Shown here: piece by piece, positions 9,801 through 29,054 of the stretch
How the letters are laid out: each line of letters begins with the position of its first letter
Numbering within the stretch: position 1 is the first letter of the stretch
From: Bacteroidota bacterium
Lineage (GTDB): Bacteria; Bacteroidota; Bacteroidia; M30B66
DNA: 59,147 bases
Assembly (NCBI GenBank): GCA_027483445.1
Contig: JAIXUS010000006.1
Span: 1 to 59,147, forward strand
Direction: 5' to 3'
Position numbers and translations under genes: made by a program
Notes under the pieces: model-generated
Told to the model about the DNA's origin: nothing
The model's input: the letters and a program-made list of their open reading frames with translations, nothing else
Databases searched by the model: none

Positions 9801-12800
9801 AGGTGGGTTTATGCGGATGGCAAACTCGTTTACTGTGGCATTCGAAAGGCTGGTTTGGTCGAGTGCTGCGGTGGTGCTGTAGTTTGGTGTGCTGAATGTT
9901 GTGCTGGGTGTACTGTTAAATTCTGTCCACAATGTTCCGTTCCAGCGATTGATGCGCATATTTGAAAAGGAACCTGCACCTAAGTCGCCGGGATCGTTAA
10001 TGGTAAATGTGGGAGTGAAGGTAAATGAGCCAGCAAGAGAATTGCTGATGGTCCAGTAACGGTTTGCAAACTCAGGAGCGGGCGAATTGTTCGGGTGAGC
10101 AGTAGCGATTACCCGTACACCTAAGTTACGTGGTGTAAGGTTTCCGGTGATGTTCAAGGCTACCGGCGAATACGCTCCACCTGCGCCCACAGGGAAAACG
10201 AAGTTGCCTGAGCCCGCATTTACCTGACGCAACAAAGTTCCGGTACCGTTTACTAAAACATACGCTGTAGAGGAACCGCCACTGATGGCACCTGCAGTTC
10301 CGGCCGATACCGTAAGGTTGTTGTTACCGATACTTACGATACCGGCGCTGAGATTCAGCAAGGTGCTTACTGTCGCAGCAGAGGTAAGCGTAACGCCCGC
10401 AGTATTGTTGAAGGTTACAGTAGCACCTCCAGTAAATCCAGTTCCGGTATTCTGTGCTGTTGTTCCATTAAAGGTATAGTTTGCCCCAGTGTTAAAGGTT
10501 CGGATACCCGATGATCGAACCCCACCGGTAGCTCCTGTTGCCGCTATACCATCGGCCTGGCTTGTAGTTAAGGAGGCCCCGGTATTTAAGGTAAATGTAC
10601 CGTTGTTATTCAAAAAGCCAGTACCTGAAAATACAATGGCTCCACCTGTGGCAACATTTATATTGGTGGTATTTGCCGCAATGTTGTTTGTACCACTTAA
10701 GGTTAAGGTTCCCCCTGAGTTTACGTTAAGGGGAGCAGTGATCGAAAATGGACTTGCATTGATATTCAGTGTACCGCCATCCACCTCAACAGAGGTTAGG
10801 GACACCGTTGTTGTTGCTGAGTAGTTTTTGATGCCTGCGTTAATGAAGCGTAGGCGGCTGATTGCAGATCCACCGCCGCCGCTTAAACCACCAGATGTTA
10901 CCGTAAAATCTCCACCAACTCTGAATATCGCATTTTGCCCAGCACCACCGGACGTCCATACTATGGCTGTACCAGAAGCCGCATTTACAAGAACGTTCAC
11001 CAGTACAGTAAACGTTGTTGTAGGGGATGCAGAGGAATTGTTATTAATAAACAAAGAGTTAGTTGTGGTTGGAACCGCCGTGGTGGTGAAGTTATTGACC
11101 GTAATTGTGGAAGTCGCAGCTACTGCCCCCCTGTTCCATGACAATCTAGAGTTACCAGAAAGGACGAGATCGCAATTGTAGGTTCGGTTAATTCCGGTAA
11201 AATCTAAGATTATGTTGTTGGTACCGGAAATTGTCCAGGTACCGTTGATTTGCGTAGGATTGTTGGTTCCTGTAAGTAAGGTTCCGGAAGTCAAACCTGG
11301 AGTATTCCAGGTCCAGTTCCCTAAAGTTTGGCCATTAAATCCGGTAGGAGCTGTTGCTACGGTTCCGGTGATTAAACAGGTGGAAGTAGTATTCCAGGTT
11401 GCTGTAGGAATCACTCCGCCATCGCGGTTATGGTCGTATGTACCGCCGGCCGCAAAAATCAGGTTGGCGGCTGTACCTGTTACCACACCACTAGCGCTGG
11501 CGCGGAGTGTACCGCTTACGGTTGTAGCTACAGCATTGGCTGCAAAGGTTCCGGCAGTTTGAGCAAAAATTGCCGAAGCATTGATTGTACCAACACCATT
11601 CACAGTAACATTTACACCCGAACTCACTGCAGCAGAAGTATTGCTAATGGTGAGATTGTTAAACACTACTGCATTGGTTAATATGCTCTGAGCAGTAGTT
11701 CCGTTAAAGTTTACCGAACTTCCGGTCGTTGTTAACACACCAGCAGTAGAAGTGTAATTTCCGCAAATGCCAATTACACCACTACCGGCCAGAACTCTAG
11801 GTCCGCCGGCTAAATTTAGATTTCCATAGTTGGCTGCAGGAATTGTCGAAGAGGCCGTTCCCGAAATGGTAAGCGTACTTGTACAATTAAATGTTGCTGC
11901 AACGCTACTACTGTATGTGTAAATACCACTAACAGTTAGCGACGAACCCGCAGCCATACTGTAGGTTCCATTACCGTTTACAGTAAAGTCGACACAAGCC
12001 CTTGCACCAGATATCGACAATGCATTGGTGTAGGAAGCCGATGTAGGAATGATGACTAAATCGCTTGCACCGGGAACAGCGGGTGGACCGAAGCTGGGGG
12101 TCCAGTTGGCGCTATTTGCCCAATCGTTGCTCGCACTACCGTTCCAAGTGAACGTGATGATTTGTACCGGTGGCACAAGCTCGCCGCTCGGTAAAAGAAT
12201 CGGCGTTCCGAAATAACCGGCGAAAGTAATTCTCGACAGTTGCGCCGGCAAAAGAGTGCCTGTTGTATTGCCAAAAAAGATACGACCTGCGGTACCAGAT
12301 GCCCCTCCAGTACCAGTCCAACCATTAATAGTTAGCGTTGTTCCGGCCCAGCTTACTGCACTCGAGTTGGCGAATGTTAATGTATGCACACCGGTTCCGA
12401 GTGCAATGGTTGAATTTGCATTGAGATTTAAGGTACCTACGGTTTCAGAAAAACCGGCGGCTGCTCCTGTGCTTAATGTACCACCATTAAGCGTGATATT
12501 GCTGGCATCGGCAATAACGTTGGCCGCGCCTAAACGCAAAATTCCACCAGTAATGGTGGTTGCCCCGGTGTAGGTATTGGTGCCAGAAAGAACCTGTGTT
12601 CCGGTGTTGCTTTTGGTGAGCCCGCCTGTACCTGAAATTACCCCGGCATAAGTATCAGTGCCCGCATTATTGATATCTAAGGTGGCGGTTCCTAACGTTA
12701 CTGATGCAGTGGCACTAGCACTCGCCAATGCTATTCGCTGGTTGTTATTGTTTAGATTTAAAACACCATTCCCGTTAATAGTCACCAAGGGTGGTGTGCC

Positions 12801-16877: not shown

Positions 16878-18598
16878 ACCACTTACACTACGATTTTAGC
16901 TGGCAGCGCGCCAATACGCAACTCATCGACATTTGCTTTACCGTGCAGCAGAACACCGAAGCATTGGTGGAGCTCTGCCTGCCAGCATGGCGTCCGGGGC
17001 GCTACGAACTGGGCAACTTTGCCAAAAATATCCGCAGCTTTAAGGTTGAAAACCTGCGAGGTGAAGCACTGAGCTACCAAAAGCTGAGTAAAGACCGCTG
17101 GCAGATTGAGGCCGCCGACAATACAGCCTTTCGGGTGCGCTACCAATACTACGCCGCCGATCTCAATGCCGGCTCCAGCTTTCTCGACACCGAGCAGCTT
17201 TATGTAAATCCGGTGAACTGCTGCGTTTATCTACCGGATCGTATGGAGGAGCCTTGTAGCGTAAAGTTAAACATCCCCGAAAACTGGCAGGTGGCCTCCG
17301 ACCTTCCCCGCGGAGCGGAACCCACCCTACTGCTGGCCGACACTTTCGACCGCCTGGCCGATGCCCCGTGGATTGCCTCCCCCAGCCTTCAGCACCGAAG
17401 CTTTAGCACCCGTAACCATACCTTTCACCTTTGGTTTCAAGGCATCAGCAATCCGCCCTGGGAAAAACTTCTGCGCGACTTTGAGCCCTTTTGTGCCGCT
17501 CAACTCGAGGCCATGGGACCACTGCCCGCTCCAGAGTTCCACTTCCTCTTCCAGATTCTGCCCAATTTCTTTTACCATGGCGTGGAGCATACCCAATCGA
17601 CCGTTTGCGCACTGGGACCGGGTATGGCCGTGTTTGAAGGCAGCGGTTACGACGACCTCCTCGGCGTAAGCAGCCATGAGCTTTACCACGCCTGGAACGT
17701 TAAAACCCTTCGTCCGGCCGATATGCAACCCTACCGCTTCGACCGCGAGAATTACAGCAGGCTCGGCTGGGTGTACGAGGGCATCACCACCTATTATGGC
17801 GACCAATACCTCATCCGTTCGGGCGTTTTTTCGGCAGAGCAATATTTTGAAACCCTCAACGAGAAGCTGCACAAGCACTTCGTGAATTACGGCCGCTTTA
17901 ACCAAAGTGTGGCTGAGGCCAGTTTCGACACCTGGCTCGATGGCTATGTGCCGGGCATTCCACACCGAAAAACCTCCATTTACACCGAAGGCAGCCTGAT
18001 TGCCCTGATGCTTGATGTTGAGCTGCGCAAGTCATCCAACAACCAAAAAAGCCTCGACGATGTAATGCGCTACCTACTTGGCAATCACCTGCATTACACA
18101 CGCGAACACCTCATCGAAGCGCTGGAGAATTGCGGTCTTGCCCAGGCCGAAAGCCATTACCGCAGTTTGGTAGAAAACGTTCCGCTGCCCGAAGAACGCT
18201 TGCAGGCGGCCCTCGCCTACCTCGGACTAGAGCTTTACGAGCACAAGCACCTCAGCGAACATGAACACCGATTTGGCATGCAGCTCATCGATCAGGGCGG
18301 TTGGTACAATGTGGGCTGGATTGCGCCCGACAGTCCGGCTGAAAAGGCAGGCCTTCAAACCGGCGATTTGTTTCTGGCCCTCAACGGACAGCGGCTGGGC
18401 AAATCGGCCAAAGCCCAATGGGCAGAAGCCATGCAACGCGACGAGTGCCTAATCCACTTCTTCCACGAAGGTAAGCTGCGCGAAAAAGTGATGCAGTTCG
18501 ATAGCCGCAACTATTTCGTAAGCCGAAAAGCCCGCATACAGGCCAATGCCGGTGCGGCCGAAGTCGAAGCCCGAAAAGCCTGGGCCGTAAATCTCTAA
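16874..18598 (+). CDS. M61-family metallopeptidase with PDZ domain
   Basis: I start at the ATG at 16874, which overlaps the pafA stop by four bases (ATGA); the frame is open further upstream, but that part would lie inside pafA. The 574-residue product has the M61 beta-domain at the N-terminus, the zinc site HELYH at 268-272 followed by AWNVKTLRP (the family pattern is HExxHxWNxKxxRP), and the third ligand in GWVYEGITTYYGDQ around Glu302. The C-terminal roughly 100 residues form a PDZ domain (GWIAPDSPAEKAGLQTGD). No signal peptide is visible, so a cytoplasmic location is likely. M61 enzymes include glycyl aminopeptidases; the substrate here is not known. It is probably co-transcribed with pafA. 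Confidence 0.92.
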   Translation: MNHLHYDFSWQRANTQLIDICFTVQQNTEALVELCLPAWRPGRYELGNFAKNIRSFKVENLRGEALSYQKLSKDRWQIEAADNTAFRVRYQYYAADLNAGSSFLDTEQLYVNPVNCCVYLPDRMEEPCSVKLNIPENWQVASDLPRGAEPTLLLADTFDRLADAPWIASPSLQHRSFSTRNHTFHLWFQGISNPPWEKLLRDFEPFCAAQLEAMGPLPAPEFHFLFQILPNFFYHGVEHTQSTVCALGPGMAVFEGSGYDDLLGVSSHELYHAWNVKTLRPADMQPYRFDRENYSRLGWVYEGITTYYGDQYLIRSGVFSAEQYFETLNEKLHKHFVNYGRFNQSVAEASFDTWLDGYVPGIPHRKTSIYTEGSLIALMLDVELRKSSNNQKSLDDVMRYLLGNHLHYTREHLIEALENCGLAQAESHYRSLVENVPLPEERLQAALAYLGLELYEHKHLSEHEHRFGMQLIDQGGWYNVGWIAPDSPAEKAGLQTGDLFLALNGQRLGKSAKAQWAEAMQRDECLIHFFHEGKLREKVMQFDSRNYFVSRKARIQANAGAAEVEARKAWAVNL

Positions 18599-18605
18599 GC
18601 ATTCT

Positions 18606-18613
18606 TACTTTTG
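18606..18613 (+). promoter_or_regulatory. Putative -7 element TACTTTTG
   Basis: This is an exact match to the Bacteroidota -7 consensus TAnnTTTG, 17 bases before the ATG at 18631, in the short gap after the M61 gene. No TTG is seen at the expected -33 position, so the promoter call rests on one element. Confidence 0.35.
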
Positions 18614-18630
18614 CCTCATCTTCAGCCGGT

Positions 18631-19650
18631 ATGAAACTCTATCTCGAATCGAACCTCCACAGCGAAATTGCGCAGGCTGCCGAAACACGGCTGTTTAGCG
18701 GACTCAATGCCCGCCTTAACACATTGCGGCGGCCCGGTGAGGCCCTCGAGACCCTGGCGCTTGAGCTTTCAGGGCGCTTTCCGAGCCTGCATGTAGAGGC
18801 CTTGGGCGCTCTGGCCCACGAGATTGTGCACGAGGCGCACCGATTGCAACATGCCGGACTGGAGGCGCAATCGACCCTTTTTCGGTTTCCGGTATCGTTC
18901 GAAGCCATTAAGGCCTGTCGCGAGCTTGAAGACAGCGGGCTGCACTGCCACCTTGAGTTTGTGGGCAGCCAGCAACAGGGCTGGATGGCCATGGAAGCCG
19001 GGGCAAGCCTGATTAGCATTCCACTCGATGGCCTTCAACAGCAAGGTATGGATTACCTGCGCACGGCCGAAGCCTGCATGAACATTGCCTCACGCTACAG
19101 CTACCCAACACAGGTTATGCTAAGCGGCGTGCAGCAAAGTGCCCAGTTTCGCGAGGCCCTCAGCCTGGGTGTCGATGCCGTTTCGGCGCCCCTCAGCCTC
19201 TGCATACAAGCGCCCGAAAGCCCTTGGGCCAGCAACAATGCCCGCGAGCTGCTGGGCCAATCGCGACTCAACACCTTGCGGGTGGCCGACGTGTTGCGCA
19301 AAGTAAACCCAACCGTGAACCTCAATGAGAAGATAGTAGAGGCTGTTGTCCAAATGAGCAGGGGCGGCATGGGCGCAGTAGCCATTGTAGATGCCGATGG
19401 CAACATTGCCGGGGTATTTACCGATGGCGATTTACGCCGACAACTCGAACGCCACGGGGCCGATGTTTTGCAAGTGCAGCTAAGCACACTACCCCTAAAA
19501 ACGCCCGCCTCCATTGAGGCCGATGCCTTTTTGGCCGAAGCCGCCAGCCTCTTTGCCGAGCGCCGCATCGACAACGTACTGGTAACCGACAATGGCCGCC
19601 TGGTAGGCATGCTCGACATTCAGGATTTAAATACAAACAAACTCTGGTAA
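18631..19650 (+). CDS. Transaldolase/FSA-like barrel fused to a CBS pair; catalytic residues replaced
   Basis: A 339-residue fusion. Residues 1-215 follow the fructose-6-phosphate aldolase (small transaldolase) fold: MKLYLES at the start, LHVEALGALAHEIVHEA, FRFPVSFEAIKAC and GWMAMEAGASLIS line up with the family's LYLDT, AEV.A....MV.EA, VKIPVT.EGL.A and QALLAA.AGA. Compared with E. coli FSA recalled from memory, Asp6 is Glu6, the TTNPS loop is gone (NARLN, 26-30), and Schiff-base Lys85 is Arg85, so aldolase activity is unlikely. Residues 225-339 are two CBS domains (VAIVDADGNIAGVFTDGDLRR and VLVTDNGRLVGMLDIQDL) that resemble those of arabinose-5-phosphate isomerase KdsD. A ligand-sensing or regulatory role is inference. 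Confidence 0.75.
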   Translation: MKLYLESNLHSEIAQAAETRLFSGLNARLNTLRRPGEALETLALELSGRFPSLHVEALGALAHEIVHEAHRLQHAGLEAQSTLFRFPVSFEAIKACRELEDSGLHCHLEFVGSQQQGWMAMEAGASLISIPLDGLQQQGMDYLRTAEACMNIASRYSYPTQVMLSGVQQSAQFREALSLGVDAVSAPLSLCIQAPESPWASNNARELLGQSRLNTLRVADVLRKVNPTVNLNEKIVEAVVQMSRGGMGAVAIVDADGNIAGVFTDGDLRRQLERHGADVLQVQLSTLPLKTPASIEADAFLAEAASLFAERRIDNVLVTDNGRLVGMLDIQDLNTNKLW

Positions 19651-20286
19651 ACGCCCGTCAGTAGTAGCGGCGGAGGCAAAATGCAAGGCCGTGTTTGGCG
19701 AAGCACGTATCAAACTCCCGCGAATGGGTAATACTTCGAAATTGGAGCACAGCAACACTTAACTAGTGCACGAATTTCGTCTGATGCCCTTGTTTTTTTT
19801 TGGGCGTTGCCGCACCCTAAGTTCCTCTTTCATTGGGCCCACTCAGCGGCGGCCGCGTTTTCCGCTACAAGTCCTCAGCCGCTCCGCCCCCTTCGGCTAC
19901 GCTCAGGGCGCAACTCCGCGGCCTCCGGGCTTTTCGCTGCAACCGCTAACGCGGGCAAACATTAACCATTAGAGAATGACGTGCAAACGAGCCAGCCGAA
20001 TATTTATGAAAAACCGGCCAATAAAAGCAACTCAATTTAGCTTTTGCATGCTTACTGCAGACCATTGAATCAATTCACAATAGCTTAAACACATCCAAAA
20101 TGGAGTGATTAGCAAACAACAATGCCCCTACCCAAATAACACTATTGTTCATAGAGTACTAACATTCAATCCAATAAAACCAGAAACCTGATAGAAGTTT
20201 GTTTGTATAATCTCCAAAACTGTCATATCTTGCGCATATCCACCTAAAAGGAAAGAATAAGTGAATAAAGTGGCGTGAATAAATAA
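19651..20286. other. Gene-free region at the border of the AT-rich island
   Basis: No supported gene. The first 300 bases are GC-rich and include the extragenic repeat at about 19788-19970. From about 19980 the composition turns AT-rich, marking the left edge of the island. An ACTAAC at 20158-20163 lies 130 bases before GTTAGCA at 20287-20293, but no complementary arms connect them. Confidence 0.55.
19788..19970. repeat. Extragenic repeat element (TTTTGGGCGTTGCC ... CGCTGCAACCGCTAACGCGG)
   Basis: It begins with a T-run and GGGCGTTGCCGC and ends with CGGGCTTTTCGCTGCAACCGCTAACGCG. Inside, the phrase TTTTCCGCTACAAGTCCTCA (19858-19877) and the closing TTTTCGCTGCAACCGCTAAC are degenerate copies of each other. 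Elements of this build occur in intergenic regions of many Flavobacteriia from my recollection. A 68-codon ORF through it is not credible as a gene. A decayed relative lies at about 39360-39480. Confidence 0.55.
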
Positions 20287-20293
20287 GTTAGCA
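20287..20293 (+). other. Possible left boundary core (GTTAGCA) of the cassette array
   Basis: GTTAGCA here is identical to the right-hand core of the attC-like site at 20794-20800. It lies 7 bases before the first cassette gene, where the upstream cassette junction would be expected. There is no paired hairpin to its left, so it would be an attI-like or degraded junction; a 7-mer can also occur by chance. Confidence 0.3.
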
Positions 20294-20300
20294 GTTATTT

Positions 20301-20663
20301 ATGAGAAACACCGGAACACACGATCCAATATCAGTAGTTACAATTTTTGCATCCATCTTCTATCTTTTTGGATTACTAATAGTTGCAAATATTAGATATT
20401 CCAAGTTCATCCGTACTATAAGAAAGACACAACCAAACTTTTCAGAAGACTTAGATGGACTTTATGTAGGGGACGGTGGAAAGTTTTTATTGGGAAATGG
20501 CGAATACTGGTTTAGGACACCTTTACCAATCAATGCTAAAACAAACGATCTTGAGACTTTGATAGCAATAAAACGACATGATAAAATCATAAAGGTTTTC
20601 TGGATTTCTGTCTTAACAATCATACCAGGAGTAATTATATTTTTGAATATCAGAGGTAAATAA
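20301..20663 (+). CDS. Small membrane protein, unknown function (cassette 1 cargo)
   Basis: A 120-residue product with two hydrophobic segments: residues about 11-32 (VVTIFASIFYLFGLLIVANI) and about 97-115 (VFWISVLTIIPGVIIFLNI). A polar central part of about 65 residues lies between them, so it probably forms a two-helix inner-membrane hairpin. I recognise no family. The codon use is AT-rich, unlike the GC-rich genes to the left. It starts 7 bases after a GTTAGCA motif and its stop is followed within 6 bases by the attC-like site, as for a gene in an integron cassette. No promoter is seen. Confidence 0.6.
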   Translation: MRNTGTHDPISVVTIFASIFYLFGLLIVANIRYSKFIRTIRKTQPNFSEDLDGLYVGDGGKFLLGNGEYWFRTPLPINAKTNDLETLIAIKRHDKIIKVFWISVLTIIPGVIIFLNIRGK

Positions 20664-20668
20664 ACAAC

Positions 20669-20800
20669 TGCTAACAGCAGTTTGGCGAAATGGCGGGTGA
20701 CGTGTTTCTTTGACAGTTTAGTGCTTAACCAAAGTGCAGTTCTTCGATTGAACTTTTGTGCTAAAAATCCGCCACTTCGCCAAGCTGCAAAACGTTAGCA
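20669..20800 (+). repeat. attC-like recombination site 1 (132 bp)
   Basis: Outer cores TGCTAAC (20669-20675) and GTTAGCA (20794-20800) are exact reverse complements. Inside them, arms at 20678-20696 (CAGTTTGGCGAAATGGCGG) and 20769-20787 pair at 17 of 19 positions. The central region is 72 nt and holds a small AGTTC/GAACT hairpin. This is the layout of an integron attC (R'', L'', loop, L', R'), although the core GTTAGCA deviates from GTTRRRY at its last two positions. It directly follows the stop of the 20301 gene and shares length, loop size and arm sequence with the site at 24139-24270. Confidence 0.7.
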
Positions 20801-20970
20801 CTCACTCTAAAAGACCGACACGACCGACAACAAGCGAACAGAAAAATGCCAACGCTTCGCAAAATTAAAAGAGCTGTTTTCCCTTTCACAAGCCGACCCA
20901 AAACAGCACATTTAATTTTGCCCGACACACCCAAGCCCACCCACCACCCAAACATTGTTGAAAACTTCTT
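20801..20970. other. A/C-rich spacer between attC-like site 1 and the restriction module
   Basis: The plus strand is strikingly poor in G and rich in A and C, with repeated GACCGACA-type phrases. No plus-strand gene is present; an 84-codon minus-strand frame here has no family resemblance and is probably a by-product of the composition. A similar A/C-rich stretch precedes site 2 at 24040-24130. Confidence 0.5.
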
Positions 20971-21013
20971 TGGACTTTTTTTGTCCATTAATTTTTTATA
21001 ATTATTTTTGGAC
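20971..21013 (+). promoter_or_regulatory. Promoter and probable operator of the restriction-modification operon
   Basis: TTTG (20980-20983), 19 bases, then TATTTTTG (21003-21010) match the Bacteroidota -33/-7 promoter exactly in sequence and spacing, predicting a start near 21017, about 10 bases before the ATG at 21028. An inverted repeat TGGAC-N7-GTCCA (20971-20987) covers the -33 element. A third half-site TTGGAC (21008-21013) overlaps the end of the -7 element. This arrangement fits autoregulation by the HTH protein encoded immediately downstream. Confidence 0.6.
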
Positions 21014-21027
21014 ATTATTTGACCAAT

Positions 21028-21354
21028 ATGGCAACAGTTAAGAAGACAAAATCATTTGGAGAACATCTTAGACATCTAAGAGAGGAAGCGGGATTGACTT
21101 TGAAATTTGTTTCAGAGCAAATTAGTATTGACACTTCCCTTCTAGCTAAGATTGAACGCAACGAAAGACAGCCGACAAAGCAAATTATTAAGCAATTTGC
21201 TGACTTTTTTAAAGTTGACGAAAAAGAATTGCAGAATGATTTTTTAAGTGATCAAATAGCTTACAAAATTCTTGACGAGGAAGCAGATTTAAGTATCTTA
21301 AAAGTTGCTGAGGAAAAAGTGAAATATCTAAAAACTGTTCACAATGGAAAATGA
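21028..21354 (+). CDS. XRE-family HTH regulator of the restriction-modification operon
   Basis: A TTG three codons upstream could also start the frame, but the ATG at 21028 fits better with the predicted transcription start near 21017. The product is 108 residues. Residues about 8-65 are a classic Cro/CI helix-turn-helix domain (LRHLREEAGLTLKFVSEQ, then IDTSLLAKIERNERQPTKQ), followed by a charged C-terminal helix. Controller-type and solitary HTH proteins of this size often open type II restriction operons and time endonuclease expression. It overlaps the methyltransferase start by 11 bases, so the two are co-translated, and the inverted repeat over its promoter is the likely binding site. 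Confidence 0.88.
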   Translation: MATVKKTKSFGEHLRHLREEAGLTLKFVSEQISIDTSLLAKIERNERQPTKQIIKQFADFFKVDEKELQNDFLSDQIAYKILDEEADLSILKVAEEKVKYLKTVHNGK

Positions 21355-22642
21355 AATTAAAGTCGTAGAATTATTTGCAGGTGTTGGAGGGTTTCGTCTT
21401 GGACTTGAAGGATGGAATGGAAAATCTGCATCATCAGGGTATAATAAATCACTAAAATCGCCTTATAAAGTGGTTTGGAGTAACCAATGGGAACCATCAA
21501 CAAAAACTCAACACGCTTCTTTGGTTTACGAAAATCGTTTTGGAAAAAATGGACATTCAAATGAAGACATTGCACAAGTTGATGTTTCCAATATTCCCGA
21601 CCACGATTTATTAGTAGGCGGTTTTCCTTGCCAAGATTATTCGGTTGCCACAACACTAAAAAATTCCAAAGGACTTATCGGAAAGAAAGGTGTTTTGTGG
21701 TGGAGTATTCAAAAAATAATTTCAGAGAAAAAGAATAAGCCAAAGTATTTATTCTTTGAAAACGTTGACAGACTTCTCATTTCGCCATCAGGACAACGAG
21801 GACGAGACTTTGCAATTATCTTACAAAGTTTAAATGAATTGGGTTATGCTGTTGAGTGGAGGGTTGTAAATGCAGCAGATTTTGGTATGCCACAAAGACG
21901 AAGAAGAGTTTTCATCCTAGCATATTTAGAAGGAACATCAATTCACGAAAGTTTAAAAGAAGTTACTCCAACTGAATGGATTTTAGATGAAGGAACTTTA
22001 GCAGAAGCATTTCCAGTGACTTCTGGAAATTCATTGTTTCCAACTGAATTTAAACTCAAAGGTGATATTGTTTCAATATCAGAAAACTTCAATAAAAACC
22101 GAACAACAGGACTTTTTGAAAACACAGGTTTAATGATAAACGGTTTTGTTACAACTTTAAAGACACAACCAAACTATGATGGAAAGTTCACGATTTTGAG
22201 AGACCTTATTCAAAACGGAGAGGTAACATCAGAGTTTTATATTGACAAAAAAGACCTTGACAAATGGGCGTATTTAAAAGGTCCAAAAAAAGAAATGCGG
22301 ACAAATGCACAAGGCTTTGAATATCATTACAGCGAGGGAGGAATGATTTTTCCAGATCCGTTAGACAAACCTTCAAGAACAATAATAACCGGTGAAGGAG
22401 GAAAATCTCCATCAAGATTTAAACACGTAATCCAAACTCCAAAAGGTTACAGACGACTTTCGCCAGTAGAACTTGAACGATTAAATATGTTTCCTGACGA
22501 CCACACAAAACTTGAAGGAGTTTCAGATACCAAAAGAGCTTTCTTTATGGGTAACGCTTTAGTTGTAGGTGTAATTGAAAAAATTGGAATTGCTTTAAAT
22601 CAAAAAATCACGAATGAAGTTGCCTTACAATCCGAAAGATAA
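21344..22642 (+). CDS. DNA (cytosine-5) methyltransferase of a type II system
   Basis: A 432-residue C5-MTase with its motifs in order: I (VVELFAGVGGFRLGLEG, SAM binding, residues 7-23), IV with catalytic Cys96 (VGGFPCQDYSVA), VI (FENVDRLL), VIII (QRRRRVFILAY), the variable target-recognition region (about 215-340), then IX/X (YRRLSPVELERLNMFPD and FFMGNALVVGVI). It methylates cytosine to protect the host from the adjacent nuclease. Because that nuclease looks Sau3AI-like, the target is predicted to be GATC with the C methylated; this is inference. It overlaps the regulator upstream (11 bases) and the nuclease downstream (29 bases). AT-rich codon use matches the island. Confidence 0.95.
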   Translation: MENEIKVVELFAGVGGFRLGLEGWNGKSASSGYNKSLKSPYKVVWSNQWEPSTKTQHASLVYENRFGKNGHSNEDIAQVDVSNIPDHDLLVGGFPCQDYSVATTLKNSKGLIGKKGVLWWSIQKIISEKKNKPKYLFFENVDRLLISPSGQRGRDFAIILQSLNELGYAVEWRVVNAADFGMPQRRRRVFILAYLEGTSIHESLKEVTPTEWILDEGTLAEAFPVTSGNSLFPTEFKLKGDIVSISENFNKNRTTGLFENTGLMINGFVTTLKTQPNYDGKFTILRDLIQNGEVTSEFYIDKKDLDKWAYLKGPKKEMRTNAQGFEYHYSEGGMIFPDPLDKPSRTIITGEGGKSPSRFKHVIQTPKGYRRLSPVELERLNMFPDDHTKLEGVSDTKRAFFMGNALVVGVIEKIGIALNQKITNEVALQSER

Positions 22643-23999
22643 AAAATCAGTTATTGATTATGCTAAGTTGCTTAAAGGAAAAACTTTAAGACAGATTTGC
22701 GACCCACTAATTTTAGAACACAACTACACAGGTAAAGGAAACTTCGGGCAAATACTTGAGAAGTATTACTTTGGTTATGATCCTAATTCCAAATCAAAAG
22801 CAGACTTCTTTGAGATTGGAATGGAACTCAAATCTTCACCTTTAAAGCAGTTGAAGAACGATGAGTATCGTTCAAAGGAAAGACTAGTATTAAACATAAT
22901 CAATTACCTAGAAGTTGTAAATCAACAATTTGAGGAAAGTGACTTTTGGAAAAAGAATGCAAATATTCTTTTGATTTTTTATTTGCATCAAGCAGGTTAT
23001 GACATTCTAGATTACCTAATAAAACTTGTTGACGAGTGGAATTTTCCAAGCACAGACTTAGAAATAATAAAAAAGGATTGGGAGTTAATCAAACAAAAGA
23101 TTGCTGACGGTAAAGCACACGAACTTTCAGAAGGTGATACGTTTTATTTAGGTGCTTGCACAAAAGGAGCTAACGCTTCATCAGTTCGGAAACAACCTTA
23201 TAGCGAAATACCAGCAAAACAAAGAGCTTACTCGCTAAAACAAGGATATGTAAATCATATCATTGCTTCAATTGCCAATGAAGCAACAGGAGTTTATGGC
23301 AAACTCATTCCATCAGTTGCTGTTGCAAAAAAGCAAACAATTGAAGAAATTGTTGTTTCTAAATTCAAGCCATATTACGGTAAGGCCGTTGACCAAATAA
23401 TTGCTATAACAGGAGTTGAATTAAATACAACTGCAAAAAGTTTTTATGCCAATCTTACAAAAGCAATTTTAGGAATTGAACTTGACAAAGAAATTGAAGA
23501 ATTTGAAAAGGCTGAAATCATTGTAAAGACTGTAAGACTTAAAGAAAACAATTTACCGAAAGAGGACATTTCATTTCCAAATTTCAAATACGAAGAAATC
23601 GTAAATGAAGAATGGGACGACTCCAATTTCAAAGACATTTTAGAACACAAATTTCTGTTCGTGTTTTTTCAATTTGAAAACGACCAATTGATTCTAAAAA
23701 AAGTTAAGTTTTGGAATATGCCTTATGCAGACATTTTGGAAGCAGAGAAAGTTTGGGCAAAGACAAAAGAGATTGTTTCAAAAGGCAAAATTGTAAAGAA
23801 AGTTATTGGAACAACTCGTTACACAAACTTTCCAAACAAATCTTTCAATTCAGTATCACACGTAAGACCACACGCCACAAACGCAGCAGACACCTTTCCT
23901 TTGCCTACAAAAGACAAATTGACGAAAGCAAAAGAATATACGAAACATTGTTTTTGGCTTAATAACACTTATGTAAGAGACGAAATTTATTTAAAATAG
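22614..23999 (+). CDS. Sau3AI/MutH-like type II restriction endonuclease
   Basis: A 461-residue protein starting inside the end of the methyltransferase gene. The N-terminal half has the MutH/Sau3AI nuclease pattern: GNFGQILEKYYFG with Glu49, then Asp64 and Glu71-x-Lys73 in KADFFEIGMELKSS. The Asp-to-Glu spacing of 7 and the ExK match MutH. The C-terminal half is the size of the second, catalytically inactive MutH-like domain of Sau3AI and carries SHVRPHATNAADTFPLPT near its end, a phrase seen in this family. Sau3AI cuts GATC; the same specificity is predicted here. It is the last gene of the module, followed by an A/C-rich spacer and attC-like site 2. Confidence 0.88.
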   Translation: MKLPYNPKDKKSVIDYAKLLKGKTLRQICDPLILEHNYTGKGNFGQILEKYYFGYDPNSKSKADFFEIGMELKSSPLKQLKNDEYRSKERLVLNIINYLEVVNQQFEESDFWKKNANILLIFYLHQAGYDILDYLIKLVDEWNFPSTDLEIIKKDWELIKQKIADGKAHELSEGDTFYLGACTKGANASSVRKQPYSEIPAKQRAYSLKQGYVNHIIASIANEATGVYGKLIPSVAVAKKQTIEEIVVSKFKPYYGKAVDQIIAITGVELNTTAKSFYANLTKAILGIELDKEIEEFEKAEIIVKTVRLKENNLPKEDISFPNFKYEEIVNEEWDDSNFKDILEHKFLFVFFQFENDQLILKKVKFWNMPYADILEAEKVWAKTKEIVSKGKIVKKVIGTTRYTNFPNKSFNSVSHVRPHATNAADTFPLPTKDKLTKAKEYTKHCFWLNNTYVRDEIYLK

Positions 24000-24138
24000 T
24001 CAACGCATTTGGTGGCACATTTGCAGTTTTTCCAACCGCACAATACAAAGAAAAAAACAGCAAAAGAGCCACCAAGCCAACGCACCAAGACAGACACGAA
24101 ATGACAACGAACAACAATGACAGAAAAGAAGGGCGAAG
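24000..24138. other. A/C-rich spacer after the restriction module
   Basis: No gene on either strand is convincing. An 8-bp inverted repeat, TTGGTGGC (24009-24016) and GCCACCAA (24068-24075), is present but lacks a T-run, so it is a weak terminator candidate. The plus strand from 24040 is dominated by A and C (AACAGCAAAAGAGCC, CAACGAACAACAATGACAG), as in the spacer after site 1. Confidence 0.45.
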
Positions 24139-24270
24139 TACTAACACACGTTTGGCGCAATGGGGGCTAACATCGTTAAATGAAACTTTGTGCTTCTATT
24201 GTAAATTTGTGGTGGCAGACAATTTAGTTTTCCAAAATCGCCCACTGCGCCAAGCGTGGGAACGCTAGGT
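24139..24270 (+). repeat. attC-like recombination site 2 (132 bp)
   Basis: Cores TACTAAC (24139-24145) and GCTAGGT (24264-24270, one base from GTTRRRY) flank arms at 24147-24166 (CACGTTTGGCGCAATGGGGG) and 24239-24258, which pair at 17 of 20 positions around a 72-nt centre. The total length (132), the centre length (72), the arm consensus TTTGGCGnAATGG, and the positions of two mismatches (TTTGG against CTTGG; AATGG against AGTGG) are all the same as in site 1. It follows the restriction cassette and precedes the MNT/HEPN pair. Confidence 0.7.
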
Positions 24271-24315
24271 GCAATGCTCGTTTTGCTTCGGCTTCAATAT
24301 TAAAACGAAATAACT

Positions 24316-24323
24316 TACCTTTG
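24316..24323 (+). promoter_or_regulatory. Putative -7 element TACCTTTG of the MNT/HEPN pair
   Basis: An exact TAnnTTTG match 5 bases before the ATG at 24329, implying a leaderless or near-leaderless transcript. No TTG at the -33 spacing was seen. Confidence 0.35.
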
Positions 24324-24328
24324 AAATC

Positions 24329-24640
24329 ATGAAACTGATCGATGACAACAAAGAAAAGCTCATTGAACTTTGTGATAGATACAAGGTCAAAGAGTTATAT
24401 CTATTTGGATCAATTCTAACAGCACGGTTTATAGACTCAAGCGATATTGATGTCTTAGTGCAATTCAGCGATATCGAACTCGAAAAGTACTTTGATAACT
24501 ACATGGATTTCAAAGAACAACTCGAGTTATTATTTGAAAGAGAGATTGATCTTGTTGAAAATCAAGCAATACGAAATCCAATTTTTAGACGTGTTGTTGA
24601 TAGAGAAAAGAAACTTGTATATGAACGAAAGAATTCTTAA
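24329..24640 (+). CDS. mntA: MNT-domain nucleotidyltransferase antitoxin (MntA-like)
   Basis: A 103-residue minimal nucleotidyltransferase. The active-site signature GSX10DXD is exact: Gly27-Ser28, ten residues, Asp39-x-Asp41 (LFGSILTARF then SSDIDVLVQF). A third acidic position follows in EREIDLVE. In the characterised MntA-HepT systems the MNT protein is an antitoxin that transfers AMP groups to a tyrosine of the HEPN toxin. It overlaps the downstream HEPN gene by 20 bases, a standard toxin-antitoxin arrangement. It is carried as the third unit of the cassette island. Confidence 0.92.
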   Translation: MKLIDDNKEKLIELCDRYKVKELYLFGSILTARFIDSSDIDVLVQFSDIELEKYFDNYMDFKEQLELLFEREIDLVENQAIRNPIFRRVVDREKKLVYERKNS

Positions 24641-24956
24641 ATATCTTTTTGATGTAAAAATAGCTATCGATGAAATTGATTCATTTTTTATCGGTTTAGA
24701 TAAACGCTTTGATGCATACAAAGAAAATACACTTTTAAAAAGAGCTATTGAAAGAAACCTTGAAATAATTGGTGAAGCTATTAATAGAATAATTAAAATT
24801 GAACCTGAATTCCCAATAGTTAATGCTAAGAAAATAGTTGGATTAAGAAATCAAATAATCCATTCGTATGATAATATTTCAGATGAAAATATTTGGGGGA
24901 TAATTATCAATCATTTACCAGCGCTCAAATTAGAAATCGAACACCTGATAAAATAA
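24621..24956 (+). CDS. hepT: HEPN-domain toxin (HepT-like RNase)
   Basis: The frame is open back to 24492, but the ATG at 24621 gives a product of normal HepT length (111 residues) starting MNERILKYLFDVKIAID, as in the family. An all-helical HEPN protein. The RNase motif RX4HXY is intact: Arg76-Asn77-x3-His81-Ser-Tyr83 (LRNQIIHSYDN), with Tyr83 the residue AMPylated by MntA in characterised systems. It is the toxic partner of the preceding gene. Downstream, CACTAAC at 24967-24973 resembles the left core of the attC-like sites but no arms follow, so the array appears to end here. Confidence 0.92.
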   Translation: MNERILKYLFDVKIAIDEIDSFFIGLDKRFDAYKENTLLKRAIERNLEIIGEAINRIIKIEPEFPIVNAKKIVGLRNQIIHSYDNISDENIWGIIINHLPALKLEIEHLIK

Positions 24957-25218
24957 AGCACAGGCACTAACACTTCTTCACTCCCACTCAATCCAGGGAT
25001 GAACAATCATCAAAAGTGTAGGTTTGTTTGTACTAGAGCAGTGCAAGCGGAATAATCAACCCGTCGATCAATCCATCCAGCTATGCTATGCTTTTGTGAG
25101 TAGAATGTCAGATAAATGCGAGCGCTGGAAGAAATAACGAATTTGATTTGAGTAGTTGTGTTTGGGTATTCGATGTTACACCCAAAAATTAGCCTTACAT
25201 TTCGTGTGCGTAAAACCG

Positions 25219-26037
25219 ATGATTCGAAATTTAGTTATTTCAGCACTGATTGGTCTATTGGGGCTTTCACTACACGGGTGTAAATGGAGGGTAAATACCA
25301 CCATTCACGATGAGTTTAAGCCGTTTTACACCGAGCAGAATGTGGAAGGTTGCTGTATGATATATGATCCGCAACGCCGCGTGGCTCATGTGTACAACCC
25401 ATCAATGGTAGAGCAGCAATTTACACCGGCTTCGACCTTCAAAATTTTCAATTCGCTCGTAGGCCTCGAAACTGGTATCATTCCCAATATACAATATGTG
25501 ATTCCATGGGACAGTGTGCTGAGGGCTAACCAAGCCTGGAACAGCGACCACGACTTACAAAAGGCCTATAAAAACTCCACCGTTTGGTACTATCAGGAGC
25601 TTGCGAGACGTGTGGGGCCTTTGAAAATGCAGTATTGGTTGCAAAAAGCCAAGTACGGAAATGCCGACACCAGCGGCGGCATTGATCAATTTTGGCTCAA
25701 AGGTGGTTTGCGCATATCGGTAAAAGAGCAGATTCGGTTTTTGCAAAGGCTTCACGATCATGATTTGCCATTTTCAAAAAGGAGCATTGACCTCGTTAAA
25801 ACAATCATGCTAAACCGCGATACACTTGGCGGAAAAATCTATGGAAAAACCGGCTGGGGCATGCAGGATCAAACCGATATTGGATGGTATGTGGGCTTTT
25901 TCGAGAGAGGAAATGAGGTATTTTATTTCGCAAATTGTATTCAAACCAATGACCCCAATCACAACAGCTTTGGGGCTGCCAGAATGCAGATTGTATTTCG
26001 GGCGTTACAGTCTTTAGGAATGGCGTTAAAGAATTAG
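25219..26037 (+). CDS. Class D (OXA-like) beta-lactamase family lipoprotein
   Basis: I start at the ATG at 25219, 21 codons inside the longer frame, because it begins a lipoprotein signal (MIRNLVISALIGLLGL, then LSLHGC with Cys21 as lipidation site). The 272-residue product has the class D motifs: Ser72-x-x-Lys75 in TPASTFKIFNS, S-x-V in KNSTVWYYQ, YGN in KYGNAD, the W/G strip in FWLKGGLRIS, and KTG in YGKTGWG. Class D enzymes hydrolyse penicillins or carbapenems using a carboxylated lysine; related domains also serve as sensors (BlaR/MecR), but no such membrane fusion is present. It is likely periplasmic and membrane-anchored. Whether it confers resistance is not known. Confidence 0.9.
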   Translation: MIRNLVISALIGLLGLSLHGCKWRVNTTIHDEFKPFYTEQNVEGCCMIYDPQRRVAHVYNPSMVEQQFTPASTFKIFNSLVGLETGIIPNIQYVIPWDSVLRANQAWNSDHDLQKAYKNSTVWYYQELARRVGPLKMQYWLQKAKYGNADTSGGIDQFWLKGGLRISVKEQIRFLQRLHDHDLPFSKRSIDLVKTIMLNRDTLGGKIYGKTGWGMQDQTDIGWYVGFFERGNEVFYFANCIQTNDPNHNSFGAARMQIVFRALQSLGMALKN

Positions 26038-26067
26038 TCGAAGGTTGTTGAATATATTAGAACAAAT

Positions 26068-26089
26068 GCCCGGTTCAATTGGGCTTTAT
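26068..26089 (+). terminator. Weak intrinsic terminator after the beta-lactamase gene
   Basis: GCCC (26068-26071) and GGGC (26081-26084) can form a short stem over a 9-nt loop, followed by TTTAT. The stem is short, so the call is tentative. Confidence 0.3.
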
Positions 26090-26217
26090 CCGCATGATAT
26101 AGAATAAAATACTAGCATTCGTAGACTATTACCAGGTTCAATACATCGAGATAAATCGATTCATTCCACGATTAAACGTACTTTCAACTCCAAAGCAAAT
26201 AGGTCGATGAATTTCGA

Positions 26218-26913
26218 TTACTTTCGGGCAAATCCATAAGCGATATAGCGCCAATTTCGGGGAGTTATTTGATTAAGAATAAGTGTATCGAGCCAGGAAA
26301 GCACACGCCTTTGATTTTCCGAACGACCAAAAGTGGCCGAAAATCCGGTTGTATGCAAAGCATAGCTCGAAAAAGAATTCAACCAATGCTCTAACTCTGT
26401 TACGCGGACATATCGCCAACTCTGGCCCCACCGAACAAACCGACGACGAAAAAAACGATGCAAAGGTGAAGCTTCAATATTCTCGGCAAACAGCAGAATG
26501 CCTCCCGGTTTTAGTGCCTTGTAGATCTCCTGCATCACTTTCTCCTGTGCCTCAATATTGTTATTCCGACCAATACCGCCTAATATGGATTTAAATACAA
26601 TCACATCAAAATAATTTTCATATGGAATATTTAATGCATCTACATGGGCATAACCAATCCTTTCCTGCACAGAAAATCGCGTATGCAGTTCTGAAGCACG
26701 TTCCTCCACCCCTTCCAAATCGGTGCACAATACCTTCTGTCCATTTAAGGCCATCCACAACGATAATCCACCTTGATTAGCGCCCAATTCGAGAGCCAAG
26801 CCATCCTTTCGCCATTGAACAACCTGCTCCCAAAAGTGCAATGCCTTAGACCATGAGCGCACATCCCATTGTAAAATGGCACGCTTTAATTCTTCAGTCA
26901 TTAATTCTTTCAA
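26218..26913 (-). CDS. Class I SAM-dependent methyltransferase
   Basis: A 231-residue protein with a Rossmann-type SAM-binding core. Motif I is LALELGANQGGLSLW around residues 38-52, the acidic strand-2 end is VLCTDLEG, and HVDALNIPYENYFDVIVFKS and LKPGGILLFAEN are the later core motifs. The C-terminal part is basic and aromatic (FFRRRFVRWGQSWRYV). A second in-frame ATG four codons in (MTEELKR) is also possible. The substrate cannot be told from the sequence. It lies 84 bases after the acyltransferase gene on the same strand and could be the last gene of that operon. Confidence 0.85.
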   Translation of the reverse strand: MKELMTEELKRAILQWDVRSWSKALHFWEQVVQWRKDGLALELGANQGGLSLWMALNGQKVLCTDLEGVEERASELHTRFSVQERIGYAHVDALNIPYENYFDVIVFKSILGGIGRNNNIEAQEKVMQEIYKALKPGGILLFAENIEASPLHRFFRRRFVRWGQSWRYVRVTELEHWLNSFSSYALHTTGFSATFGRSENQRRVLSWLDTLILNQITPRNWRYIAYGFARK

Positions 26914-26997
26914 ATTTCATGGTAAAAATGGTGATTCAATCAATTTCAACAACCTTTAACAAATTTAGACAAAGCAATATTGAAGATCCATGGGTCA

Positions 26998-28287
26998 TCA
27001 AACAGCCCCTAAACTGCGTAATCGGGCTTCCAATTTTGGCCACAATTCAGGATGCTTTGCAGCAGCGGCGCTATATTGAATACTATACCTTCTCAACTGC
27101 AATTGTTCCCACCACAGTAAAGTAATCCAGGTAATGCGTGGCCAGAGCGGGAGCATCAATAAGAGCCATGGAGTCATCAGCGCAGCAAAAAGAATACTCA
27201 CAATTAAAAAGGCGAAATAACTCAACAAAGCACCCGAACCAAACATTACAGAGGCTTTAAATTGCCGTGCTTTGCGGGTTTTATCGACAGCCTTGTTCAC
27301 CAAAGGCAATACCGGCAAGTGTATTAATGCACAAATAATGGCAGGAATAAACCACGCACACAAAAATGCGGTATTCCAATTGGGTACACGCCTTGGATGA
27401 AAACCGAGAGGAATGCCGGTTTTTTGCCAGGCTTTTTCCAACAATTCTGCTTGTTCAATTTGAGACACATCCACATCTTCATTGAGAATACCGGCAATAA
27501 ATGCCTGCTCGTCGCGAAGCCTTTTTCCTAGATTAAATCTCGCCGCAAAAAATGAAAAACGATAAGGTAAACGGTGAATATTCAGTAAAACTTCAGCGCC
27601 AAAATCCCAGTCTTTCTTTGGAATTATTAATAATTCATTACGCATGGCTTCACTAAGGCGATCGTTAAAAACGCGAACAGCTTTAGCAGGCTCTACTTTC
27701 CAAACCGGCTGTAAATCGTGGGTTTCGATGGCCTTTCCGAACGAAACCATAAGCTCTGAACGAAATTGATAAGGAGCCGTATAATTAATCCCCACCGGAA
27801 TTACAGATAAATTCTGAACCCAATCGGTAGCACCAAAATAAATGCGTGCAGTTCCCTTTTTAAGGGCCCGCAGGCGCTTTTCTACCACGCAATTGCCTTC
27901 TGAAAAAATTAAAATGAGCTCTCCCTTTCGAAGCAAATCATAGCAGCGGGCAAAAGTTTCCTGATTTTTGTCGAGATTTTCGGTGCCCTCCTGCAGACGG
28001 TAAATAGGAATCATGTTCAAGCGGCTCAGGATAAAGCGGGCTGCCGGCTTTCGAAAAACATCAGAGCGCACCAGAAAGTGAATCCTTCGCTTTAAAATCA
28101 AGGCCACCACAATGGCGTCGAGAAAGGAATTGGGATGATTACAGGCCAACAATGCAGGCCCTTTCCTGGGCACATGCGTGAGGCCATCCACAAACACGCG
28201 CCTGAAGTGAATGCGCATCCAATAGCGCATGATCCAATGTAAAAATGCGTACAGCAAGCCGGAGGAGTTTTCGGCAAAGCTAATCAA
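26998..28287 (-). CDS. PlsC/GPAT-like phospholipid acyltransferase with membrane C-terminus
   Basis: A 429-residue acyltransferase. The catalytic His-Asp motif is NHPNSFLD (residues 50-57; one residue longer between His and Asp than the classic HX4D, a spacing seen in GPAT-like members), followed by FSEGNC and VIPVGINY as the later substrate-binding blocks. Two to three hydrophobic segments near residues 335-400 indicate membrane anchoring. It probably transfers acyl chains to glycerol-phosphate or lysophosphatidate in the inner membrane. It begins 11 bases after the LytR-type regulator gene, so it belongs to the same operon. Confidence 0.87.
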   Translation of the reverse strand: MISFAENSSGLLYAFLHWIMRYWMRIHFRRVFVDGLTHVPRKGPALLACNHPNSFLDAIVVALILKRRIHFLVRSDVFRKPAARFILSRLNMIPIYRLQEGTENLDKNQETFARCYDLLRKGELILIFSEGNCVVEKRLRALKKGTARIYFGATDWVQNLSVIPVGINYTAPYQFRSELMVSFGKAIETHDLQPVWKVEPAKAVRVFNDRLSEAMRNELLIIPKKDWDFGAEVLLNIHRLPYRFSFFAARFNLGKRLRDEQAFIAGILNEDVDVSQIEQAELLEKAWQKTGIPLGFHPRRVPNWNTAFLCAWFIPAIICALIHLPVLPLVNKAVDKTRKARQFKASVMFGSGALLSYFAFLIVSILFAALMTPWLLLMLPLWPRITWITLLWWEQLQLRRYSIQYSAAAAKHPELWPKLEARLRSLGAV

Positions 28288-28298
28288 GACAATTGTTT

Positions 28299-29054
28299 TT
28301 AGCTACCCAACCACAACTTGAATTGCACAGCCCGTTCTCGGCTCACAGTTGCAGCAGACTGCTGATCTAGCGGTGGATTAAGCTCAAGCTTGAGTTTTCC
28401 CTGAAAATGAAGGGCTACTTTTCCGATGGCTTCCCGCTGCACCAATAGCGAGCGGCTGCATCGGAAAAACTGGGTCGGATCCAATTCGCGTTGCAATTCA
28501 TCTAGTGATTGACTTAGCCAAAATCGCTTGTTATCAAGGGTGCAGAGTTGTACCATTTTATCTTCGGCCCTAAACCAGGCTAATTCTTCGCAGGCCAGAG
28601 AAATCAATTCATCACCTTTATTCACCAGCAAACGGCGGCGAAAAGTGTTCGGTTGCAGTTGCTCAATCAACGATTGTATAGCCAATTGTGCCGATTGACC
28701 TGAGAAGCGGCGATGTTTCTCTAAGGCGCGGTGAAGATTTTCAGGCTCAATCGGTTTTAACAAATAATCAATGCTGTTTAATTCAAATGCACGTAAAGCA
28801 TGCTCGTGGTAAGCTGTAGTAAAAATTACTGGACTACTCACTGTAACCCGCTCGTAAATGGAAAAGCAGCTTCCATCGGCCAATTCAATATCCTGAAAAA
28901 TTAAATCGGGTGGAGGATTAGAATTAAGCCATTGCACTGTTTCATCAATGCTTTCGGTAAATATCAGTCGTGCCTCACCATAACCGGCCTCCTGCAACAA
29001 GCGGTGCATTCTTCGTGCGGCAAGTGGTTCATCTTCAACAATTAAAATAAGCAT
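28299..29054 (-). CDS. LytTR-family response regulator
   Basis: I choose the ATG at 29054, 4 bases after the sensor kinase stop, rather than the one at 29075 inside it, because MLILIVEDEPLAARR is the natural start of a receiver domain. The product is 251 residues. The receiver has acidic Glu7/Asp8, phospho-acceptor Asp55 (LIFQDIELADG), the Thr of FTTAYHEHA, and the Lys in YLLKPIE. A linker leads to a C-terminal LytTR DNA-binding domain (LLVNKGDELISL, DKMVQLCT, FFRCSRSLLV). It pairs with the upstream LytS-type kinase to control transcription; targets probably include this operon. Confidence 0.93.
   Translation of the reverse strand: MLILIVEDEPLAARRMHRLLQEAGYGEARLIFTESIDETVQWLNSNPPPDLIFQDIELADGSCFSIYERVTVSSPVIFTTAYHEHALRAFELNSIDYLLKPIEPENLHRALEKHRRFSGQSAQLAIQSLIEQLQPNTFRRRLLVNKGDELISLACEELAWFRAEDKMVQLCTLDNKRFWLSQSLDELQRELDPTQFFRCSRSLLVQREAIGKVALHFQGKLKLELNPPLDQQSAATVSRERAVQFKLWLGS

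Follow-up and report, generated by a model that had tools for sequence, protein, structure and literature searches.

A hairpin-site cassette array in a Bacteroidota genome and its probable integron-like system with a patch-less tyrosine recombinase

The closest described relatives of the locus treated here are integrons, especially sedentary chromosomal integrons with VCR-type sites, and the cores of integron sites follow the consensus RYYYAAC / GTTRRRY. Their attC sites carry a conserved extrahelical G on the R''-L'' arm and a T 6-8 nt further on, as laid out in the section of PMC2727003 drawn on here. Recombination of such hairpins has been tied to the I2 helix of the integrase; the passages of PMC7790495 used here favour a gain of I2 and name the lack of intermediates as a limit. 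A subgroup of tyrosine recombinases called integron-like has an insertion that is not fully conserved (PMC8138268). For Bacteroidetes proper, the relevant part of the IntegronFinder 2.0 account (PMC9024848) records only In0 in an earlier round and one complete integron, in Salinibacter ruber M1, in a later one. We analysed a stretch of 59,147 nt of a Bacteroidota genome (contig JAIXUS010000006.1, assembly GCA_027483445.1), here called the window and used for all unassigned coordinates below, in which an earlier note had described an integrase-less cassette array with attC-like sites. The comparisons below indicate that it is very probably a small cassette array of a Bacteroidota integron-like system, whose likely catalyst is a tyrosine recombinase lacking the integron-specific patch.

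The window array runs on the (+) strand and is organized around two attC-like hairpin sites of the order R''-L''-loop-L'-R', site 1 at 20667-20802 and site 2 at 24137-24272. They are 132-bp inverted repeats with a mutual identity of 76%, at the positions where the earlier note had placed them. As DNA, site 1 has paired arms and folds better than shuffled sequence on both strands (z -2.7 and -3.3), and site 2 does so weakly (z -1.9 and -1.5). A covariance model of the family, R1, scores them at 119.3 and 103.4 bits, respectively, and they are its only credible matches in the window, the next one lying at 11 bits (E 1.5). At 20287, within an attI-like array head (20257-20289, +), GTTAGCAGT matches exactly, in reverse complement, the ACTGCTAAC that opens site 1, so that the lone GTTAGCA proposed as the array start can be retained. 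Exchange at this head would fall at G|TT, between 20287 and 20288. Cassette 1, delimited core to core, spans 20288-20794 and includes site 1; cassette 2, of 3.5 kb, spans 20795-24264 and includes site 2. Site 1 R' GTTAGCACT and site 2 R'' AGTACTAAC are complementary at 8/9 bases.

The right end of the array is less regular. GCT replaces GTT in the right core of site 2, and the third unit (24265-24957, +) is followed by no match to the site model. The lone CACTAAC at 24967-24973 (+), which had been taken as the array end, did not hold up: by eye count, 3/6 of its outer bases fit the requirement of site 2 GCTAGGTGC, with a chance mean of 2.5. Since this match is near chance and no site follows, the third unit has no defined right edge and would be either a cassette minus its lost site or resident DNA. 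Conservation with sister-species DNA resumes at 25177, to the right of the array. The GC content of 20288-24957 is 0.344, against 0.562 at 17000-19650 and 0.433 at 25219-28300, in agreement with the AT-rich island between GC-richer flanks described before.

The sites belong to a widespread family. A strict pattern derived from the two window sites and run on 395 genomes of the phylum matched in 30 of them, and its reversed control gave 0 among the matches listed; a structural scanner at its lowest threshold gave 68 matches in loci (some places being counted in more than one locus) vs 1 in shuffled sequence. R1 was built from 35 aligned sites picked for complementary arms and for the pattern AACA...CG(T/C)T. 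Both sides vary in 22 of the 26 stem pairs, and pairing cells reach 89.4% vs 65.1% in shuffles, figures that are inflated by this pre-selection. R1 sites at E<=1e-6 occur in at least 182/395 phylum genomes, a lower bound given the strict filters and the scoring of at most eight candidates per genome. Within the order, R1 matches were found in 9/10 genomes, with long one-orientation arrays, such as those on contigs C136, C166, and C180 of G004. The window's own genome has 37 matches at E<=0.1, of which 32 are at E<=1e-6 and on 18 contigs, and several of its arrays share one orientation. Thus, the serial, one-orientation occurrence 3' of differing genes that the earlier note had predicted for a covariance-model search was indeed found.

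In their details, these sites share some integron features and lack others. The central spacer is asymmetric in the consensus, with one base (A) on the left and five on the right, as in integrons. No extrahelical base was found on the left (R''-L'') arm in the 35-site alignment, which shows a constant A.C opposition instead: A24/C120 is seen in all 34 sites that have letters there, and A10/C139 in 35/35, the latter partly through seed selection. Among the 75 sites from named genomes, an A follows AAC in 73/74 and a C precedes GTT in 70/72 of those scored. The classical consensus is fitted by 33/292 right cores and 25/302 left cores, as the earlier note had anticipated in calling the cores unlike GTTRRRY. 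The better-folding strand was the bottom one in 183/305 sites, the top one in 119, and neither in 3 (median -0.9 kcal/mol), a bias that is at most suggestive of bottom-strand recombination. The 305-site set, like the 158-pair set below, pools several searches, and in the latter a pair or cassette derived from an antisense echo may remain.

Next to each other in an array, the sites obey a rule that operates across genes. The six bases after GTT in R' of one site and the six before AAC in R'' of the following site were complementary at 6/6 positions in 115/158 adjacent pairs, six duplicated loci having been dropped from the pair set. In an earlier set of 81 pairs, compiled from 113/136 hand-listed matches after exclusion of weak, truncated, antisense, and duplicate rows, 49 pairs were complementary at 6/6; the mean was 4.88, compared with a within-site mean of 2.67, and 5,000 shuffles of this set gave a mean of 2.50 and a maximum of 2.95. 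The median length of the 169 cassettes delimited in this way is 998 bp; 161 of them have an ORF of at least 60 aa, and the longest ORF lies on the site strand in 154 of these 161.

The same cassettes were also found in unrelated surroundings. A 2,729-bp cassette is 99.6% identical between genomes G293 and G312, lying beside the attI-like site in the former and second in the array in the latter, and one of 993 bp reaches 91% identity between G025 and G203, two genomes of different classes; both alignments extend from core to core, and the 600-bp flanks show no similarity. A 1.05-kb cassette with 97.5% identity between G120 and G085 lies at the attI-like site in each genome, and its right flanks are unrelated. 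Less exact ends were also seen: the G293/G182 pair (91% over 3.9 kb) ends only near the cores, and the L164/L176 pair (91%), whose alignment begins 5 and 131 nt inward of the left cores and ends ~100 nt short of the right ones, was not counted as core to core. Together, these near-identical cassettes with core-to-core ends, seen between genomes and in arrays other than that of the window, speak for the proposal of exchange at the core positions. Separately, adjoining cassettes at L108 11179-12593 are 83% identical over 598 bp, likely a tandem cassette duplication.

We then consider where the arrays begin. In 41/45 loci, an exact complement of the left core of the first site lies past the stop codon of a recombinase gene, in 37 of them within 130 nt, and a TATAAA-like stretch usually precedes this attI-like core. 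Exact cores far from the stop occur at L176, where the gene is broken (469 nt), and at L201 (2752 nt); the core of L169 has one mismatch, and L171, L172, and L203 have no such core. In the named-genome set, the core was present in 23/28 loci, 15 of them within 150 nt, vs 1/752 in a swapped-core control. Several arrays of the window's own genome that have no recombinase gene also start at attI-like sequences. A matrix was made from 37 sites beside recombinase genes, the window being excluded from training; with it, 20287 (+) ranked first of the 118,250 positions of the window (20.3 vs 14.8 for the next), and it ranked first again with a matrix from five other array starts of its own genome. Rank 2 with the own-genome matrix went to 52878, which falls within a 1054-aa ORF, is not followed by a site, and was taken as a chance match.

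The genome of the window encodes a recombinase of the kind that accompanies such arrays. All of its 13 recombinase matches lie off the window contig, and none reaches the curated IntI cut-off, in a genome with 37 sites. The array itself is therefore integrase-less as the earlier note had stated, while the genome is not: contig C55 encodes, at about 156,382-158,163, its best match, a tyrosine recombinase of 593 aa, and four sites stand in series directly downstream of this gene. Against TIGR02249, this protein scores 218.7 bits (cut-off 265), aligned over positions 3-181 and 241-313 only. The family is found at 405-473 bits in 6/10 genomes of the order, the next best match being at 218 bits. 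In four of these six, a site lies within 2 kb downstream on the same strand, and the contigs of the other two end 0.35 and 1.0 kb past the gene. Upstream of 20287, a tblastn search for a recombinase remnant at E<=1 gave five short, scattered matches (best E 0.43), which we took as none.

The association extends through the phylum. The recombinase was matched at E<=1e-85 in 104/395 genomes, and sites occur in 92/104 genomes with it vs 90/291 without it (Fisher p 1.6e-25, not corrected for relatedness). The examined set comprises 66 recombinase loci, 60 of the ~123 recombinase places in the phylum listing having been covered. Downstream sites were seen in 45/66 loci, and 139/141 sites are on the recombinase strand; each of the two exceptions is a weak antisense echo of a strong site. 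In 10 of the 21 loci that lack a site, the DNA beyond the gene is shorter than 1.5 kb. At 80 named-genome loci, for which both flanks were taken where the contig allows, 70/75 sites lie downstream and share the strand of the gene; of the other five, all upstream, 2 share its strand and 3 are on the opposite one. Of these 80 relatives, 65 are from Bacteroidota, including all 28 with a downstream site. These results support the proposal of a distinct site family with a recombinase of its own, the candidate being a relative of IntI that is encoded directly upstream of the arrays. The carrier of an integron-specific patch for which the earlier note had proposed a search did not appear in this genome, whose best match is patch-less.

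In alignments of the protein, the catalytic R-K-H-R-H and Y columns are invariant or nearly so, and the patch segment is absent from every patch-less row listed. In a 50-row tree, a 100/100 branch separates XerC/D from a side shared by the patch-less recombinases and IntI, the five IntI forming a single 100/100 group; with IntI represented by five rows, midpoint rooting, and some forks left open, the tree does not settle the order of events. One patch-less relative, L202, falls with IntI at moderate support (92/87). For a 347-aa member, the AlphaFold2 model (pLDDT 83.6) best matches XerA, with 5hxy as the top fold match, and the IntI4-VCR complex.

Array-bearing members mostly have an additional N-terminal domain of ~60 aa with a GxRWS...W motif, of which the 593-aa enzyme appears by eye to contain three copies. 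In the automated table, which we take as the reported result, loci with and without sites numbered 41 and 4 in the presence of this extension and 4 and 7 in its absence (Fisher p 3.5e-4). By eye, the regular expression overlooked L167 and L196, a frame break interrupts L172, and L191 was let through on a doubtful start; correction by hand would give 44 and 3, and 1 and 8. A profile search against the PDB ranked the HARP domain of SMARCAL1 first, as did Foldseek, neither significantly (E 0.03 and E 0.89); Pfam HARP was matched in 2/32 members (best E 0.028) and DUF5710 in 15/32 (best E 4.5e-4). The fold searches thus gave no significant match, nor did a second aligner give any Z >=5, which leaves room for a fold absent from the lists. 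As a hypothesis, the domain may read the hairpins or replace the IntI patch. Related patch-less recombinases at L185, L191, L193, L199, L200, L202, L204, and L206 have no N-terminal domain and no site in 3-9 kb downstream.

From these data, the following scheme can be proposed. The recombinase encoded on C55 would most likely insert circular cassettes, each terminating in a hairpin site of ~132 nt, at attI-like sites, with exchange at G|TT, presumably on a folded single strand. The primary attI-like site would be the one just past the recombinase stop, with the cassettes downstream on the same strand, and recombinase-free attI-like sites, such as 20257-20289 in the window, would head dispersed arrays and would probably be served in trans. 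Successive cores would be complementary because, after insertion, the right core and the next left core share one cassette, as in integrons. In the window, the cargo would be an orphan gene and a restriction-modification system, followed by a toxin-antitoxin-like pair.

Such a system resembles integrons in its one-orientation cassettes, its long hairpin of VCR-like size, its AAC/GTT core boxes, its successive-core complementarity, and an attI-like entry beside a recombinase of the same clade. Unlike IntI, the recombinase is patch-less, falls below the IntI cut-off, and has the extra N-terminal domain; the attI-like site, although beside the recombinase gene, is past its 3' end, with the gene co-directional with the cassettes; and the sites have constant A.C oppositions in place of the L''-arm extrahelical base, with another core consensus. 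Since patch, extrahelical bases, and core consensus are all wanting, we regard the system as integron-like in its working and do not class it among standard integrons. Clusters of attC sites without an integrase, for which the part of PMC9024848 drawn on here uses the IntegronFinder term CALIN, resemble the window array, with two sites on its contig and no adjacent recombinase; here the sites, scored by R1 and not by the IntegronFinder attC model, are of another type, the array has an attI-like start, and the likely recombinase is elsewhere in the genome. For the patch-less members of the integron-like subgroup, the passages of PMC8138268 used here describe no cassette arrays or sites, in contrast to the present family.

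A broader proposal, which we advance tentatively and rate at slightly below even chances, is that a second class of integrons, overlooked for the most part, exists in Bacteroidota; in it, I2-less integrases would read hairpins through N-terminal modules resembling HARP, a type that binds single/double-strand junctions, and one integrase would serve many scattered attI-like sites. If this is true, a single recombinase clade found two solutions to hairpin-cassette recombination, of which the patch-less one may be the older. Independently of this proposal, 182/395 sampled genomes with the sites and 104 with the recombinase stand against the single complete integron of the IntegronFinder 2.0 account, so that a gene-capture system with many defence-type cargo genes would have escaped notice for the most part across a whole phylum. 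Because a patch-less group with working-looking arrays stands next to IntI, the origin of single-strand hairpin recombination becomes directly testable. A search by title and start of abstract found no published description of this cassette system, preprints and most subscription papers being outside its coverage.

Among other explanations, the array could be an ordinary integron with divergent attC sites, whose classical IntI is unseen or lost and beside which the patch-less recombinase is a bystander. The core logic is indeed that of integrons, and IntI over the cut-off occurs in 5/26 site-bearing genomes. We consider this unlikely: the window's genome combines its 37 sites with no such IntI, the near-constant distance to the array-start core belongs to the patch-less gene and not to IntI, and neither the extrahelical bases nor the core consensus of classical sites is present here. 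Moreover, no R1 site was found in the five IntI loci fetched, of which three are informative, since the contigs of L056 and L058 end within 0.6 kb on the classical cassette side. Inverted repeats of other kinds were noticed near classical IntI genes. The genome of L057, which also has a classical IntI, carries longer ones at 7012-7159 and 17361-17513 of that locus, of another sequence type and with AAC/GTT ends; they look like ordinary attC sites, and R1 does not match them. In L062 (G292), inverted repeats of one type at 783-915, 3305-3437, and 6835-6988 lie upstream of a classical IntI (10428-11279) and may be the attC sites of that integrase.

Alternatively, host XerC/XerD or some other recombinase might move the cassettes, with the patch-less gene merely travelling along. 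XerC/D are universal, Xer can act on a folded hairpin in CTX phage according to the portion of PMC7790495 used here, and 90 genomes have sites with no recombinase at the threshold. XerA, XerH, and the CTX-type Xer hairpin integration also resemble the present family in that their tyrosine recombinases are patch-less, XerA 5hxy being the best fold match. Nevertheless, we find this explanation very improbable, given the near-constant place of the array-start core beside the patch-less gene and the strong enrichment of sites in recombinase-bearing genomes; the family also differs in grouping with IntI away from XerC/D (100/100) and in having many cassettes per genome. Least credible is a reading of the repeats as terminators, or as a dispersed repeat of MITE type, without any role in recombination: they do come after genes, and many have a similar loop sequence, but neither element predicts cross-gene core complementarity (6/6 in 115/158) or shared cassettes ending core to core, the stem sequences diverge while pairing is kept, and no Rfam family was matched over its gathering score, the three weak matches (E 0.15-0.54) being far below gathering and taken as chance.

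Several observations weigh against our preferred reading, the integron-like system with a patch-less catalyst. Because the recombinase is encoded on a contig other than that of the window, its link to the window array is an inference. Signs of partial decay are apparent in site 2 and the third unit. For the window array, no syntenic empty site was found: the left-flank gene is present in 6/10 and the right-flank gene in 7/10 genomes of the order, and outside G000 they are never on the same contig. Besides the 90 genomes just mentioned, 12 show the reverse, a recombinase with no sites. In the named set, a downstream site is missing from 52/80 recombinase loci, in many cases though not in all because the contig ends, and L160, L168, and L197, in which the N-terminal domain is present, have none in 8.8-9.0 kb downstream. 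Finally, the choice of seed sites by complementarity takes some of the force from the covariation figures.

As for the cargo, cassette 1 carries an orphan gene (20301-20663, +) for a 120-aa, probably membrane-bound protein with no Pfam, PADLOC, or NCBIfam match. Cassette 2 carries, all on the (+) strand, genes for a helix-turn-helix (HTH) regulator (21019-21354), a C5-cytosine methyltransferase (21344-22642; Pfam DNA_methylase, 218 bits), and a Sau3AI-family restriction enzyme (22614-23999; NF040973, 549.1 bits with a cut-off of 300). With a nuclease over its cut-off and an adjacent C5 methyltransferase, these genes can be assigned by their predicted products to a Sau3AI-family type II restriction-modification system. 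The third unit encodes an MntA-like (24329-24640, +) and a HepT-like (24624-24956, +) protein, whose Polbeta and HepT-like domains exceed the Pfam cut-offs and which score 46.9 and 39.1 bits with the NCBIfam equivalogs (cut-offs 60). Since only the Pfam domains pass, the pair resembles type VII MntA/HepT and is not filed as a member. The cargo proposed in the earlier note and its single orientation are confirmed, the pair being MntA/HepT-like and below the equivalog cut-offs.

Across the wider system, 117 Pfam families were matched at 1e-5 in a scan of 144 of the 154 cassette ORFs, and none of them has more than three members. Defence-type models among these matches include reverse transcriptases, methyltransferases, AriA, and mad2, and the restriction-modification cassette of the window fits this defence-type cargo.

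On the left, the array is flanked by a gene for a CBS-domain / transaldolase-like protein. The right-flank gene (25219-26037) encodes a class D beta-lactamase homologue, at 247.6 bits vs a family cut-off of 250. In a same-genus genome, a copy with 75% identity has no array in the 460 bp of upstream sequence present on its contig; because of this array-free copy, the homologue looks resident rather than cassette-borne. Farther to the right, window positions 39500-42500 show a very strong AT skew (to about -0.69) at a GC content of 54-57%, perhaps reflecting a single long biased or repetitive gene.

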